NCBI GenBank assembly: GCA_002720855.1
Contig: PBIN01000010.1
Coordinates: 1 to 64,000 of the forward strand
Length of the DNA stretch: 64,000 bases
Direction of reading: 5' to 3'
Origin: Rhodospirillaceae bacterium
GTDB taxonomy: Bacteria; Pseudomonadota; Alphaproteobacteria; MPNO01; UBA2964
Shown here: positions 27 to 62,955 of the stretch, piece by piece
Layout of the letters: each line of letters begins with the position of its first letter
Position numbering within the stretch: the stretch's first letter is position 1
Translations under genes and position numbers: made by a program
The notes under the pieces: generated by a model
What the model saw: the letters and a program-made list of their open reading frames with translations, nothing else
Database searches by the model: none
What the model was told of the DNA's origin: nothing

Positions 27-128
27 GATGAATAGGTTCTCCTATGCATCACGTCATTGGATCCTCATCCCATCCTTTTGACGCCTCCCTGTTGAAACTA
101 GAACCGGCTTTGTGGCGGTTCTTTTTTG
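27..128 (+). ncRNA. Structured small RNA, copy 1 of a tandem pair
   Basis: No protein is encoded here. Three hairpins follow one another: 27-50 (GATG/CATC and ATAGG/CCTAT around TTCT), 52-83 (CGTCA/TGACG enclosing GGAT/ATCC), and a Rho-independent terminator at 100-127. Between the last two lies the unpaired motif CCTCCCTGTT (84-93), which resembles an anti-Shine-Dalgarno stretch. The central part recurs almost unchanged exactly 200 bases downstream, while the outer hairpins differ in sequence but keep their pairing. This looks like a trans-acting, Hfq-type alphaproteobacterial sRNA. From memory it resembles the suhB/alpha-r8 (MmgR) RNA family, but I could not search Rfam. The 5' end is inferred from the first hairpin. 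Confidence 0.72.
100..127 (+). terminator. Rho-independent terminator of sRNA copy 1
   Basis: AGAACCG (100-106) pairs with CGGTTCT (116-122) and is followed by a run of six T. Compared with copy 2, one A-T pair is replaced by G-C on both sides, so the stem has been kept by a compensatory change. Confidence 0.85.
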
Positions 129-189
129 TCTACGTAATTAAGAAATGTTTCTTTCGATGCTCAATCGAGTTCTAAACAAGTAATATTTG

Positions 190-23012: not shown

Positions 23013-23021
23013 ATTCAAATA

Positions 23022-23172
23022 GATGCTGCGTAGTGCGAGAGACAATACATCCCTTGGGCCAATGTATTTCTCTAGGGAGCTGTCCCTACCGGAGCCCTGG
23101 TTTCGGCATACGGCGCCCACCTGCTTACGCGGGCCTTAGAGGATGACTTCGTCGAACGGCTATCGCGGCATC
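23022..23172 (+). ncRNA. ssrS: 6S RNA
   Basis: The 204-base gap between zapA and the 5-FCL gene is the classic site of 6S RNA. The ends pair as a long closing stem: GATGC with GCATC, then GCGTAG with CTATCGC (23022-23033 with 23160-23172). The interior contains further short stems and a purine/pyrimidine-balanced central region that could form the open-complex-like bubble. 6S RNA traps sigma-70 RNA polymerase in stationary phase. Exact ends are inferred from the stem. Confidence 0.82.
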
Positions 23173-23216
23173 ACCTATAGATGTGAAGCTCTAGTTTTAG
23201 AAAGTAGACGTTCTCT

Positions 23217-58113: not shown

Positions 58114-58245
58114 CTCCGGAAAACTGGAAACATGTTTCGTGTCGGAAGAATATGCCAATTTCCTTTATTAAAATGATTATAAACTGGAATATAAGTTACT
58201 GATTACCATATATACACCATTGAAAATTAAGGAATGGAGGTTATT

Positions 58246-58698
58246 ATGGGTGCTAACAGTAATATGGCGGTTGTCGAAGGGTTGTCCCGCGTTCTGGCGG
58301 ATAGCTATACGCTCTATATTAAGACGCATGGTCATCACTGGAATGTCGAAGGACCGAATTTTCCCGCACTGCATGCGATGTTTGAAGAGCAATATACAGA
58401 GCTTGCAGACGCCGTAGACCAAATTGCTGAACGAATCCGCGCCCTGGGTGCTAAGGCGCCGGCCGGTTATGCCGCTTTTGGAGAATTAACCAGTATCCCG
58501 GAAAGTGGGAATGATCTTTCAGCAGAGGAAATGGTCGCTGATCTGCTCAGCGCGCACGAAGCAGTTGCGACATCTTCAAAAGCAGCGTTGGAAGCAGCAG
58601 AGGCAGCAGAAGACGAGGTCAGCATCGATCTCATGGTTCAACGGATCACCATCCACGACAAGACGGCCTGGATGTTGCGGAGCACATTGGCGAAGTAA
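58246..58698 (+). CDS. dps: Dps/ferritin-like DNA protection protein
   Basis: 150 residues with the Dps ferroxidase residues in KTHGHHWNVEGPNF and LHAMFEEQYTELADAVDQIAERI. Dps stores iron using peroxide and protects DNA in stress. ATG at 58246 is preceded by GGAGG at the right distance; the in-frame ATG at 58234 is less likely. The AT-rich 120 bases upstream may hold its stress promoter. Confidence 0.93.
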   Translation: MGANSNMAVVEGLSRVLADSYTLYIKTHGHHWNVEGPNFPALHAMFEEQYTELADAVDQIAERIRALGAKAPAGYAAFGELTSIPESGNDLSAEEMVADLLSAHEAVATSSKAALEAAEAAEDEVSIDLMVQRITIHDKTAWMLRSTLAK

Positions 58699-58826
58699 CG
58701 ATAGAAGCGCATCGTTCACGGATTGGTGAGGCCTATTGCATGGTTCGCGCTATCCTTCATATTAAGCGGTAATAAATGGGGGCGGTACATATAGTCGCCC
58801 CCAGCCGCACAGAAGGAGCCTTTGCG

Positions 58827-59795
58827 ATGCTGCTTAAATCTAAACCCAATTGGGAACTGCCCGAATCCGCCGCGACGTCAGAATCCGTATTTCAAGACAG
58901 GCGCCGCCTCGTGAAAGCAATGGGTCTGGCCCCTATCGTTGCCGCGGGGGCAGCCCTGCCAAACACTGCGGCGGCGGCAACTGCTGACCCAAGCGCAAAG
59001 TTTTATCCGGCAGCGAGGAACCTGCGTTACCGGCTAGATCGTCCGTTGAGTGCCGAAAAAGATGCCACAACCTATAACAATTTTTACGAGTTTGGCTCGC
59101 ATAAATATATCTCCAAGGACGCGCAGGCGCTAAAAACGCGGCCATGGACCGTGACGTTTGACGGTATGGTCGAAAAAAAGATAACCGTCGATATCGATAC
59201 GCTGATATCGAAGATGCAGCTGGAAGAACGGCTTTACCGGTTCCGTTGCGTCGAGGCCTGGTCGATGGCTTTGCCGTGGACGGGCTTCCCGATGGCAGAC
59301 CTTGTCAAATTCGCTCGACCCTTGAAGGGTGCAAAGTTCGTCATGATGGAAACGTTTCATGATGCCGCTATGGCCAAAGGGCAGAAGCAGTTCTGGTATC
59401 CGTGGCCCTATCGTGAAGGTTTATCCCTTGAAGAGGCAACCAACGAGCTGACACTGATCGGCACCGGAGCCTACGGCAAGCCCATGGTTAAGCAAATGGG
59501 CGCTCCATTGCGCCTTGTCGTACCGTGGAAATACGGCTTCAAGTCAATCAAATCGATTGTCCGCTTTAGCTTTACCGACAAGCGGCCAGTGAGTTTCTGG
59601 GAAAAAGTCCAGGGCAAGGAATACGGGTTCTGGGCAAATGTGAATCCCGATGTACCGCATGCACGCTGGAGCCAGGCTACCGAACGCGTCCTCGGCGGCA
59701 AAGGGAAGCGGGTTAAGACACTACTCTATAACGGATATGGCGATCAGGTGGCCGGTCTCTACAAAGACATTAATGGCGAGAATATTTTCTTTTAG
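58827..59795 (+). CDS. msrP: Protein-methionine-sulfoxide reductase catalytic subunit MsrP
   Basis: 322 residues from ATG 58827, which follows AGAAGGAG. A twin-arginine signal (RRRLVKAMG) implies folded, cofactor-loaded export; the molybdenum-ligating cysteine is in FRCVEAWSM. MsrP repairs oxidised methionine in the periplasm. Its usual membrane partner msrQ is not adjacent. The Moco genes at 41.6-44.1 kb supply part of the cofactor pathway. Confidence 0.95.
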   Translation: MLLKSKPNWELPESAATSESVFQDRRRLVKAMGLAPIVAAGAALPNTAAAATADPSAKFYPAARNLRYRLDRPLSAEKDATTYNNFYEFGSHKYISKDAQALKTRPWTVTFDGMVEKKITVDIDTLISKMQLEERLYRFRCVEAWSMALPWTGFPMADLVKFARPLKGAKFVMMETFHDAAMAKGQKQFWYPWPYREGLSLEEATNELTLIGTGAYGKPMVKQMGAPLRLVVPWKYGFKSIKSIVRFSFTDKRPVSFWEKVQGKEYGFWANVNPDVPHARWSQATERVLGGKGKRVKTLLYNGYGDQVAGLYKDINGENIFF

Positions 59796-59807
59796 ACGAA
59801 TGGGCGA

Positions 59808-60695
59808 TTACGCCGCTATATGCTGATCAGCGTATGGCCGATCTCCACCGACGACCGTGCGATGCATCCGCCGTATATCGGGTAGGCCATAACCGCCGAC
59901 TGCCCTATGGCAGATGCACCGATTGTCCCACATCACCAGGTCATTCTCGCGATATTTATGTCGATAGTGGTTCGGACGTTTGCGATCCGTTATCGGAGCA
60001 AAAATAGCATCAAGAATTGGGTCCGATTCCTCTTCGCTCATTCCATGGATTCCAACGGTAAATCGAGGCGAGCAATACAGAGCTTTCTGTCCGGTTTCAG
60101 GATGTTCCAAAACTAATGGCTGAATTACTTTGGGACGCGCTTTTGCTTGTGCCTTGTAGAAATCTTTTGCACCCGGCCGGTCGGGGGAGATTGTGACACG
60201 TTTGTTTCCCACCTTGCTGACGTGATGGATGCCATAGAGCCCGTCGATTTTTTCTTTTATATCGTCCGATAAACCCTCGTACGCGGCGTACATGTTGCAG
60301 AATTCCGTATCACCACCGCGCTCAGGGTTCCTGACCGATTGCAGGATGGTAATCGCTGAGGGTATTTCAATATGAGAAGAGTCCGAGTGCCAGAAATCGC
60401 CTCCATCGACGACGCCAACTGCCGTGCCGTCGGGCCGAATCTCGTTCGACAGGATCATGACTTTGTGTGTCTCCTCTGTCGTATATTCGATATTAGACGG
60501 TGTCTCCAACTCACCCCAGATTTCTGAAAAAGTGACCTGCTGCTCCGGCGTCAGCGTTTGGTCCCTGATCACCAACACCAGATGGTCCAATAATGCCTTG
60601 CGCAGAGCCGACTTGGCGTCTTCGCTTATGGGGTCAGCGAGATTTACGTCTGTAATTTCAGCGCCGACGATCTCTGAAACTGGCGTAACCTTCAT
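59808..60695 (-). CDS. TauD/TfdA-family dioxygenase (second copy)
   Basis: 295 residues. HxD iron ligands in FWHSDSSH (about 100) and the distal histidine in CICHRAVGGY (about 265). Only distantly related to the enzyme at 19387. It converges with msrP 12 bases away. The substrate is unknown; the family ranges over taurine, alkylsulfonates, aryloxyalkanoates and small carboxylic acids. Confidence 0.88.
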   Translation of the reverse strand: MKVTPVSEIVGAEITDVNLADPISEDAKSALRKALLDHLVLVIRDQTLTPEQQVTFSEIWGELETPSNIEYTTEETHKVMILSNEIRPDGTAVGVVDGGDFWHSDSSHIEIPSAITILQSVRNPERGGDTEFCNMYAAYEGLSDDIKEKIDGLYGIHHVSKVGNKRVTISPDRPGAKDFYKAQAKARPKVIQPLVLEHPETGQKALYCSPRFTVGIHGMSEEESDPILDAIFAPITDRKRPNHYRHKYRENDLVMWDNRCICHRAVGGYGLPDIRRMHRTVVGGDRPYADQHIAA

Positions 60696-60798
60696 AACGA
60701 CTTTCCTTGCCGCACTTTCTTCGAACAGGAAATCAATATTTACGCCGTTTGGACGGATTCGTCCATGTTCTCGTGAGGTTCCAATTTACGAGAAAGAC

Positions 60799-60826
60799 AA
60801 AAAAAGGCCGGGCCCGAAGGCCCGGC
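60799..60826 (-). terminator. Rho-independent terminator with TTCG loop
   Basis: Minus strand: GCCGGGCC-TTCG-GGCCCGGC, a perfect eight-base stem, then C and seven T. It ends the ncRNA and any read-through from lysR. Confidence 0.93.
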
Positions 60827-60937
60827 AAGATAACAGGGAGGCTTCACGTCTAGAAGACGTTGGATCCGAAGACCCATTTCCGAATGTTGCACCCGGAAAT
60901 CATGCGCTGAAGAAATTCAGAAGCTTTCCTTCAGCAT
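60799..60937 (-). ncRNA. Highly structured ncRNA candidate with CCTCCCTGTT-plus-terminator end
   Basis: On the minus strand four hairpins follow one another: GCTGAAG/CTTCAGC (60935-60906), ATTTCCG/CGGAAAT (60900-60876), GGGTC-TTCG-GATCC (60875-60862) and ACGTCT/AGACGT (60860-60846). Then comes CCTCCCTGTT (60841-60832), identical to the motif in the two RNAs at the left edge, and a terminator at 60826-60799. Two loops are TTCG. No coding frame was found. The promoter may be at 60940-61040, or the RNA may be processed from the lysR 3' end. The role is unknown. Confidence 0.68.
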
Positions 60938-61043
60938 TCAACGTGTAAATAGGGTCAATTGTGAGCATCGACTACATTCAATTCAGCAACCCAGCCATGC
61001 ATTAATTGCATACCTAATAGAAAGTCACATATAAAACAGATGT

Positions 61044-61934
61044 TTATCGATGGTCTTCGGCGATACGTCGCAATAAAAAGTCACGGAAAACCGCGACACG
61101 GCGGGAATGGCGCATTTCTTCGGGGTATACGAAAAACGCCTTGTGTACCGGGCCCTTGAGGTTCGGCAATACCGGAACCAAACCGCTCGTGAGGCCAACC
61201 ATATAATCCGGCATAGAGGCAATACCCATCGCGTTGGCCGCCGCCCGGTACATTGCATAAAGGTTATTTACCCGCAGAACCGGTTTGCGTTGAAAACCGC
61301 TATCAAGCCCCGCATCGAGCAGCCAATTAATATTGGTAAATGGCGGATGATACGTTTCGTCATAGGCAATCAGCCTGTGATCCTCTAAATCGTTGAGAGA
61401 ATGCGGCATGCCATATTGTTCAAGATATGCGGGTGCGGCAAAGGCACCGTGATGCAAATCAAACAGGTGACGTTGGATCAGATCAGGTTGCTGAGGGGGT
61501 GCTAGGCGGATCGCAATGTCAGCCTGACGCATACTAAGATTGAGTTCGTCTTCACGTAAGATGAGAGCAACCTCAATTTCCGGATACATTTCGAGAAAAT
61601 CTTTTAGGCGCTCTGTGAGCCACATCGAGCCAAATGCGACTGTGGTGGTCACACGTAGCGGGCCACGTGGTCGCTCCATGGATTCTGTAACAAGTGACTC
61701 CGCGGTTGTCAGTTTGCTGGCGATTTCCTGCGCCGTGCGATACAGAGTTTCGCCTTGCTCGGTGAGTTTTAGACCGCGCGCATGCCTGTGAAATAACGGG
61801 ACGCCCAGATCTTCCTCCAAGGCACTAATTTGGCGGCTGACTGAAGATTGAGTCAGGTTAAGACGTTCTCCGGCATGGGTAAAACTTCCGGCCTCTGAGA
61901 CAGTGTGAAATATCCGCAGCTTGTCCCAATCCAT
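61044..61934 (-). CDS. LysR-family transcriptional regulator
   Basis: 296 residues: N-terminal helix-turn-helix (GSFTHAGERLNLTQSSVSRQISALE) and a periplasmic-binding-type effector domain. Not divergent with any adjacent gene, so its target is unclear; trxB is 53 bases upstream on the same strand, and LysR proteins linked to trxB are common in some alphaproteobacteria. The structured ncRNA lies just after it. Confidence 0.92.
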   Translation of the reverse strand: MDWDKLRIFHTVSEAGSFTHAGERLNLTQSSVSRQISALEEDLGVPLFHRHARGLKLTEQGETLYRTAQEIASKLTTAESLVTESMERPRGPLRVTTTVAFGSMWLTERLKDFLEMYPEIEVALILREDELNLSMRQADIAIRLAPPQQPDLIQRHLFDLHHGAFAAPAYLEQYGMPHSLNDLEDHRLIAYDETYHPPFTNINWLLDAGLDSGFQRKPVLRVNNLYAMYRAAANAMGIASMPDYMVGLTSGLVPVLPNLKGPVHKAFFVYPEEMRHSRRVAVFRDFLLRRIAEDHR

Positions 61935-61986
61935 CGCACATCATTCTTTCGTTCGCCCCGTCTTCAAATCGGAGCTAAAGATGTCT

Positions 61987-62955
61987 TTATTCGGCTGCCA
62001 CTCCGGCGGCACTTTCATTTTCGGCGACAAATTGTTCGGCTTCAAGCGCTGCCATGCAGCCCGTACCGGCGGCGGTTACAGCTTGGCGATATATTTTATC
62101 CTGGACGTCGCCTGCAGCAAACACGCCTGGGACACTGGTCGCGGTGCTGTCGGGGGCCGTTAAAATATAACCTTCGTCATCCATGTCGAGGTGGCCGGCG
62201 AATAGCTTCGTTGCTGGGTCATGGCCAATTGCGATGAATAATCCATCCACCGTGAGATCGGTTAAATCCCCGGTTTTTGTATTCTTGAGTTTTAATCCAG
62301 TGACACCCAGCGGGTCTTCCGTGCCGACAACTTCATCGACAGTGGTATCCCATAAAATTTCAATTTTCTCGTGGGCAAACAGCCGTTCCTGAAGGATTTT
62401 TTCGGCACGCAATTCATCGCGACGGTGGATCAGGGTTACCTTGGTTGCGTGATTTGTCAGGTAAAGAGCTTCTTCGACCGCTGTATTCCCGCCGCCAACC
62501 ACGGCAACCTCTTTGCCACGATAAAAGAACCCGTCACAAGTCGCGCAGGCCGACACGCCAAATCCCATAAATTTCTCTTCCGTCGGCAATCCCAACCAAC
62601 GCGCCTGGGCGCCCGTGGCAACGATTACGGTGTCTGAATAATAGACATCTCCAGAATCAGCGACGCATCTGAAAGGTCTCTTGGAGAAATCAATGTCGAC
62701 GATCAGGTCGGTATGCATTTCAGTGCCCACCGCGAGGGCCTGACCTTGCATCTGTTCCATCAGCCAAGGGCCTTGGATTACTTCGGCAAAGCCCGGATAG
62801 TTTTCCACATCCGTTGTGATCGTCATTTGACCACCGGTTTCCATACCGGTCACCAGATGGGGCTTGAGGCTCGCCCGGGCGGTGTAAACCGCTGCAGTAT
62901 ATCCTGCGGGGCCCGAGCCAATAATTAAAACAGGTGTATGAAATTCTTCTGACAT
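61987..62955 (-). CDS. trxB: Thioredoxin reductase
   Basis: 322 residues. FAD motif [10 protein letters not shown] near the N-terminus, redox pair CATC in CATCDGFF (about 138) and NADPH motif [12 protein letters not shown]. It reduces thioredoxin. Same strand as lysR downstream and the unknown gene upstream, with 13 bases between it and the latter. Confidence 0.97.

Follow-up and report, generated by a model that had tools for sequence, protein, structure and literature searches.

Gene organization of the locus

The window, meaning the whole 64,000-nucleotide stretch of DNA that was analysed, carries on its minus strand a predicted sRNA gene about 100 nt after the stop codon of a lysR gene, with trxB and lysR lying upstream on the same strand. 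Downstream of the RNA are a TauD-family dioxygenase gene on the same strand and a convergent msrP. The grouping of trxB, lysR, the sRNA and msrP (58234-62955 of the window, where dps is also present) is found at many related loci. The core of the RNA was described by R1, a covariance model built from VtlR-linked homologues. The features are as follows.

60799..60940 (-): predicted sRNA, about 142 nt; fold z = -4.8; model R1 84.3 bits at 60799-60895
60799..60826 (-): intrinsic terminator, 8 bp, TTCG loop, T run; helix 3 of R1
60832..60841 (-): aSD2 motif CCTCCCTGTT, mostly unpaired; CCTCCCTG invariant in 48 aligned rows
60846..60860 (-): hairpin 4, ACGTCT-TCT-AGACGT, 6 bp; helix 2 of R1
60862..60875 (-): hairpin 3, GGGTC-TTCG-GATCC, 5 bp including one G-U pair; helix 1 of R1
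60876..60900 (-): hairpin 2, ATTTCCG/CGGAAAT, 7 bp; covaries in near relatives
60906..60936 (-): 5' hairpin (hairpin 1), 7 bp core, lineage-specific sequence, by direct sequence reading
60947..60953 (-): predicted -10 element CCTATTT, about 43 nt after the box
60988..61000 (-): predicted LsrB/VtlR box GCATGGCTGGGTT, a perfect match to GCAT-N3-TG-N3-T and part of the inverted repeat ATGCAATTAATGCAT
61044..61934 (-): VtlR/LsrB-type LysR regulator, 296 aa; Pfam HTH_1 and LysR_substrate
61987..62955 (-): trxB, thioredoxin reductase; TIGR01292, 411 bits

Structure and conservation of the RNA

Read directly on the minus strand, hairpin 1 has a 7 bp stem (GCTGAAG/CTTCAGC), and the terminator is an all-G/C helix, GCCGGGCC-TTCG-GGCCCGGC, followed by a T run. 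The minimum free energy of the RNA is -58.0 kcal/mol versus -39.6 +/- 3.8 kcal/mol for shuffled sequences, none of the 200 shuffles being as stable, and aSD2 (CCUCCCUGUU) has an unpaired probability of about 0.5-0.95. A preliminary description had proposed a minus-strand ncRNA of four hairpins with a 10-mer and a strong terminator; the reading from 60937 to 60799 and the z-score bear this out. The perfect stems of 7, 7, 5 and 6 bases that it listed are right in length, although hairpin 3, with its G-U pair, is not strictly perfect, and its 5' end agrees with a promoter-based start. The ATG frame at the 5' end of the RNA, read by eye, has only six codons, so that coding is unlikely.

Support for the RNA is mainly comparative, since its homologues retain the hairpins through compensatory changes, the reverse of the hairpin loss that the preliminary description had named as evidence against it. 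In alignment A3, which is model-guided and leans towards its own structure, 92.3% of cells are paired versus 71.1% after shuffling and at most 48.5% in slid controls, and 16 of 18 pairs show two-sided changes: all 5 pairs of hairpin 3 (81.9% of cells paired) and all 8 of the terminator are among those changed on both sides, while hairpin 4 has 95.7% of cells paired. Ten near relatives folded independently of R1 (alignment A2) yield the same helices, with compensation in 13 of 34 pairs, including the 5' hairpin; relatives retain an equivalent of that helix, all 5 of its pairs having changed on both sides. The consensus fold of a plain MAFFT alignment (A1) recovers hairpin 4 only, probably because terminators of different length are misaligned, and A3 was used for this reason.

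The deep core consists of hairpin 4, GAAG, CCTCCCTGTT and the terminator; hairpins 1 and 2 are lineage-specific in sequence. In 152 of 206 sequences hairpin 4 has UCCCA following CGUC, which makes its loop CUCCCA. In the window's genus the loop is CUUCUA in place of CUCCCA, which leaves aSD2 as the only anti-SD motif there.

The trxB-lysR neighbourhood

The main clue, absent from the preliminary description, is the trxB-lysR(VtlR/LsrB) neighbourhood with its LsrB-type box; these connect the RNA with the regulatory circuit of AbcR. The window LysR and S. meliloti LsrB share 48% identity. In Agrobacterium the gene order is trxB-vtlR-abcR1-abcR2 (PMC7486931), and the same circuit was re-found in the S. 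meliloti record, where the two RNAs behind LysR score 110 and 107 bits for ar15 (RF02345). The window RNA thus occupies the place that AbcR1/AbcR2 have behind trxB-vtlR/lsrB in Sinorhizobium and Agrobacterium.

A LysR protein search of 289 class genomes, together with the loci of relatives, gave 149 distinct LysR loci. Among these, trxB lies upstream in 127 and CCTCCCTGT downstream in 97; some of the 52 without CCTCCCTGT have the RNA a few kb away. Both were located in 104 genomes: the best R1 match follows LysR at less than 600 nt in 86 of these, at up to 6 kb (0.9-6 kb) in a further 12, and lies elsewhere in the other 6. In much of the class Alphaproteobacteria the RNA is a neighbour of this master-regulator gene. 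In many relatives msrP lies close to the RNA, in keeping with the role in redox sensing that has been reported for LsrB.

Predicted promoter

The published LsrB/VtlR consensus is GCAT-N3-TG-N3-T (PMC8844928), and the predicted box in the window overlaps an inverted repeat, ATGC-N7-GCAT. Of 92 core-bearing loci, 78% have a LysR-type box, ATGC-N5-8-GCAT, in the interval from LysR to the core, versus 1.3% after shuffling; the stricter LsrB consensus is found in 29% versus 1.5%. A -10-like match is present in 35 of 72 loci, and in 28 of these 35 it follows the box at a distance of 42-43 nt. A consensus sigma-70 scan gave no promoter at the window RNA, and the -10 element was derived from conservation instead. 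The box and the conserved -10 spacing together predict a start near 60940.

Range of the family

The covariance-model search that the preliminary description had proposed was carried out with R1, which matches 146 of 289 sampled class genomes (110 of 218 genera) and has one strong locus in this genome. Part of the region was recovered by blastn in 35 of 61 relatives, nearly always behind the same LysR. The exact 19-mer GACGTGAAGCCTCCCTGTT occurs in at least 118 stretches among 84,980 species genomes, a scan that selects for the 19-mer and so says nothing about the conservation of the 19-mer itself; among the matches listed, a LysR lies at most 1 kb upstream in 82 of 118 (median 220 nt). The 80 matches listed with names all belong to Alphaproteobacteria or are named only as Proteobacteria. 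Carriers of the core include Azospirillum, Magnetospirillum, Roseomonas, Reyranella, Kiloniella and many uncultured lineages; one genome of the window's own order (G013) is a Defluviicoccus MAG, as judged by identity of sequence.

Some loci carry more than one copy. Two to three tandem CCTCCCTGT-type RNAs stand behind LysR at L124 and L130 (genomes G163 and G259), like the AbcR1/AbcR2 tandem. In Minwuia and relatives (L121, L126, L166, L172, L185) the RNA seems to have the motif twice, since another copy of CCTCCCTGTT is found some 40 nt upstream of the core.

A phage origin was rejected, no match being found in 50,697 phage records. A full-text search of the open literature with core words gave no sRNA paper among the 20 matches listed of 441; these came from short 10-mer words and none from 15-base core words. 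The core is also absent from the main text of an Azospirillum sRNA paper.

The shared 10-mer and the left-edge RNAs

The preliminary description held that the window RNA shares its 10-mer with two RNAs at the left edge of the window. Exact copies do lie at 84, 284 and 60832, three where about 0.1 would be expected from base counts (an estimate); a shuffle test allowing one mismatch was unremarkable. The motif search across the genome that it had proposed returned 8 exact copies versus 5 for the reversed control, which is no enrichment for the 10-mer by itself. Copies in an sRNA context were found only at the window locus, at the left edge and at a contig end belonging to the same repeat. The 10-mer alone was therefore rejected as a family marker, half of the genomic copies having no terminator behind them.

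The left-edge RNAs were scored with R1:

29..129 (+): left-edge RNA 1, probable sibling; R1 22.4 bits
235..329 (+): left-edge RNA 2, probable sibling; R1 39.9 bits, E = 1e-9

The view of the window RNA as a distinct RNA sharing a 3' module with them needs amending in one respect: it is a distinct ncRNA gene and the module is shared, but the R1 matches indicate that the left-edge RNAs are not unrelated to it and are probably its divergent siblings. They also resemble BjrC1505, SorX and SorY: left-edge RNA 2 scores 42.5 bits for BjrC1505 (cut-off 50), and the left-edge RNAs reach 38.5 bits for SorX (cut-off 46.6). A third sibling copy, at a contig end (C15:27-127, minus strand), mixes features of both left-edge RNAs, and the contig break thus probably falls inside a tandem sRNA array.

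The same module had been described as regulatory or Hfq-binding. The module itself stands, but the best interpretation of its 10-mer is as an anti-Shine-Dalgarno motif for base pairing, like those of aR8/SisA and RFMSmelC671. The U-tail of the terminator is a likelier basis for Hfq binding than the 10-mer.

Comparison with known sRNA families

At gathering score, the only Rfam match in the window is 6S RNA, at 23020-23175 (+). The family of the window RNA had not been recognised in the preliminary description, and Rfam 15 indeed has none for it.

AbcR is the closest known system in organization. AbcR has motif M1 (CUCCCA) in the loop of a hairpin and M2 (GUUCCC) in a single-stranded stretch (PMC5461406), and both motifs pair with ribosome-binding sites (PMC8844928). 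Two reports on the control of AbcR by LsrB in S. meliloti disagree (PMC7486931, PMC8844928). Both RNA groups lie behind trxB-vtlR/lsrB, have an LsrB-type box and an intrinsic terminator, often occur in copies, and combine a CUCCCA hairpin loop (in most members of the window-RNA family) with a second, single-stranded aSD. They differ in that M2 GUUCCC lies between hairpins 1 and 2 of AbcR, whereas CCUCCCUGUU stands right before the terminator of the window RNA; the window-RNA family also has a far wider taxonomic range. In the window RNA itself the loop is CUUCUA, and CCUCCCUGUU replaces GUUCCC.

The ar15 model gives 97-127 bits for AbcR of S. meliloti, Shinella and Rhizobium and no match at 60700-61050 with E up to 10; in 193 class genomes it was silent, as it was in the control genomes. 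R1, run on S. meliloti, Shinella and Rhizobium, does not find AbcR. A search for homology to AbcR at the level of sequence thus gave no model match in either direction. By its sequence, then, the window RNA is not a member of the AbcR family, while resembling it in position, promoter box and anti-SD motifs. It is a syntenic counterpart of AbcR built of similar parts, and common descent is possible.

Other alphaproteobacterial sRNAs share parts of the 3' module. SorX (RF02784) and SorY (RF02651) of Rhodobacter have the CCUCCCUGUU and terminator module, and their models score 31.2 bits (cut-off 46.6) and 23.7 bits (cut-off 111) on the window RNA; SorX differs in being processed from the ompR-1 3' UTR. 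BjrC1505 (RF02356, cut-off 50) has GACGCCUCCCUGUU and a terminator, and was not among the matches at 60700-61050 with E up to 10. RFMSmelC671 has a single-stranded CUCCCUGU between variable hairpins and the terminator (PMC3927594), but it has been described in Rhizobiales only. The aR8 family (MmgR, SisA-D; Rfam suhB, RF00519) is class-wide like the window RNA and has a CCUCCCU aSD core after a hairpin and before the terminator; its 10-mer is UUUCCUCCCU and it is linked to FGase genes, whereas the window RNA has GAAGCCUCCCUGUU and lies beside lysR. In Rfam, ar15 and suhB belong to one clan.

In Paracoccus denitrificans (L294, 3537-3625), an RNA scoring 52.6 bits for SorX (cut-off 46.6) lies directly behind a VtlR-like LysR (46% identity), and trxB was not found next to it; R1 matches this RNA weakly (25.9 bits). 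The pairing suggests that the Paracoccus RNA and its LysR are a Rhodobacterales version of the same circuit.

Proposed mechanism and alternative readings

The reading that we consider likely is that the window RNA is a VtlR-activated, Hfq-dependent, trans-acting anti-SD sRNA, a counterpart of AbcR outside Rhizobiales. We infer that it is expressed as a base-pairing sRNA from its own promoter and ends at its intrinsic terminator. The upstream VtlR/LsrB-type LysR most likely activates it through the ATGC-N7-GCAT box about 50-60 nt before the start. On Hfq, whose gene is present in this genome, the exposed CCUCCCUGUU would pair with GGGAGG-type ribosome-binding sites, as the CUCCCA loop of hairpin 4 would in most relatives, and such pairing would repress translation of transport and catabolic mRNAs. 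The RNA would fill the position of AbcR, and probably its role, outside Rhizobiales: by analogy with AbcR in rhizobia and Brucella, it probably covers the ribosome-binding sites of genes for nutrient uptake and catabolism and so turns them off.

Candidate targets were sought as CAGGGAGG-N3-9-ATG, which occurs at 12 places genome-wide, against 3 with the reversed control. Most of these places precede catabolic genes, and one precedes the gene of a TRAP transporter binding protein. The longer candidate ORFs, named from their translations, encode a Rieske oxygenase, an ornithine-cyclodeaminase-like protein, a second TauD, a VOC protein, an alpha/beta hydrolase and the TRAP-transporter binding protein; several ORFs in the list are short and doubtful. 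As evidence on targets the search is weak: some of the matches are ordinary Shine-Dalgarno sequences, a function that GGGAGG also serves, and the ORF names come from reading the translations.

Other origins can be considered for the same RNA. Its position on the lysR strand, about 100 nt after the stop codon, would suit a processed 3' UTR of the lysR mRNA, freed by RNase E, as SorX, which has the same 3' module, is from the ompR-1 3' UTR in Rhodobacter (PMC8625941); its terminator could also serve the trxB-lysR transcript. A LysR box nevertheless separates lysR from the RNA in most core-bearing loci, followed at a constant distance by a -10-like element wherever one was detected, and the RNA lies 0.9-6 kb away in 12 genomes and elsewhere in 6, which makes this origin improbable. 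We give about the same low credence to a paralogue of the aR8 family (MmgR/SisA-D, Rfam suhB) standing beside lysR by chance. The CCUCCCU core between hairpin and terminator is common to both RNAs (PMC12559287), and RF00519 does score 27.1 bits at the window RNA; that score is nonetheless under the family cut-off of 41 bits, the aR8 10-mer UUUCCUCCCU is absent, GAAGCCUCCCUGUU being present instead, and the linkage is to trxB-lysR and not to an FGase gene. At both FGase loci of this genome, moreover, CCTCCCT is absent.

Those FGase genes, at C14:267760-268464 and C7:48530-49183, have no aR8-type CCTCCCT nearby, and the usual FGase-linked aR8 RNA may thus be missing or diverged in this genome. 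That the element is no regulator at all, merely a strong terminator with hairpins or a repeat, is very hard to credit: the unpaired 10-mer is near-invariant, the helices upstream of the terminator covary, this genome has one strong locus, and the linkage across genomes is to one gene.

Evolution and significance

The RNA is one of a known kind. The locus is a structured and deeply conserved sRNA gene representing a new class-wide family that is missing from Rfam 15, and its analogy with AbcR is well supported. At the post-transcriptional level AbcR is a major regulator of metabolism, symbiosis and virulence, and it has so far been treated as a Rhizobiales RNA. Tentatively, and with somewhat less than even confidence, the VtlR/LsrB-sRNA circuit may be class-wide and ancient, the window RNA being its older form, AbcR a derived or replacement version in Rhizobiales, and the SorX/SorY-like RNAs the version in Rhodobacterales. 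If this is true, the RNA was rebuilt, yet a single regulator that senses redox state or nutrients retained an aSD sRNA as its partner throughout Alphaproteobacteria. An RNA in the place of AbcR, with a promoter box and anti-SD motifs of the same kind, would in itself make the origin of AbcR a tractable question and provide the carrier groups beyond Rhizobiales with a predicted, testable global regulator.
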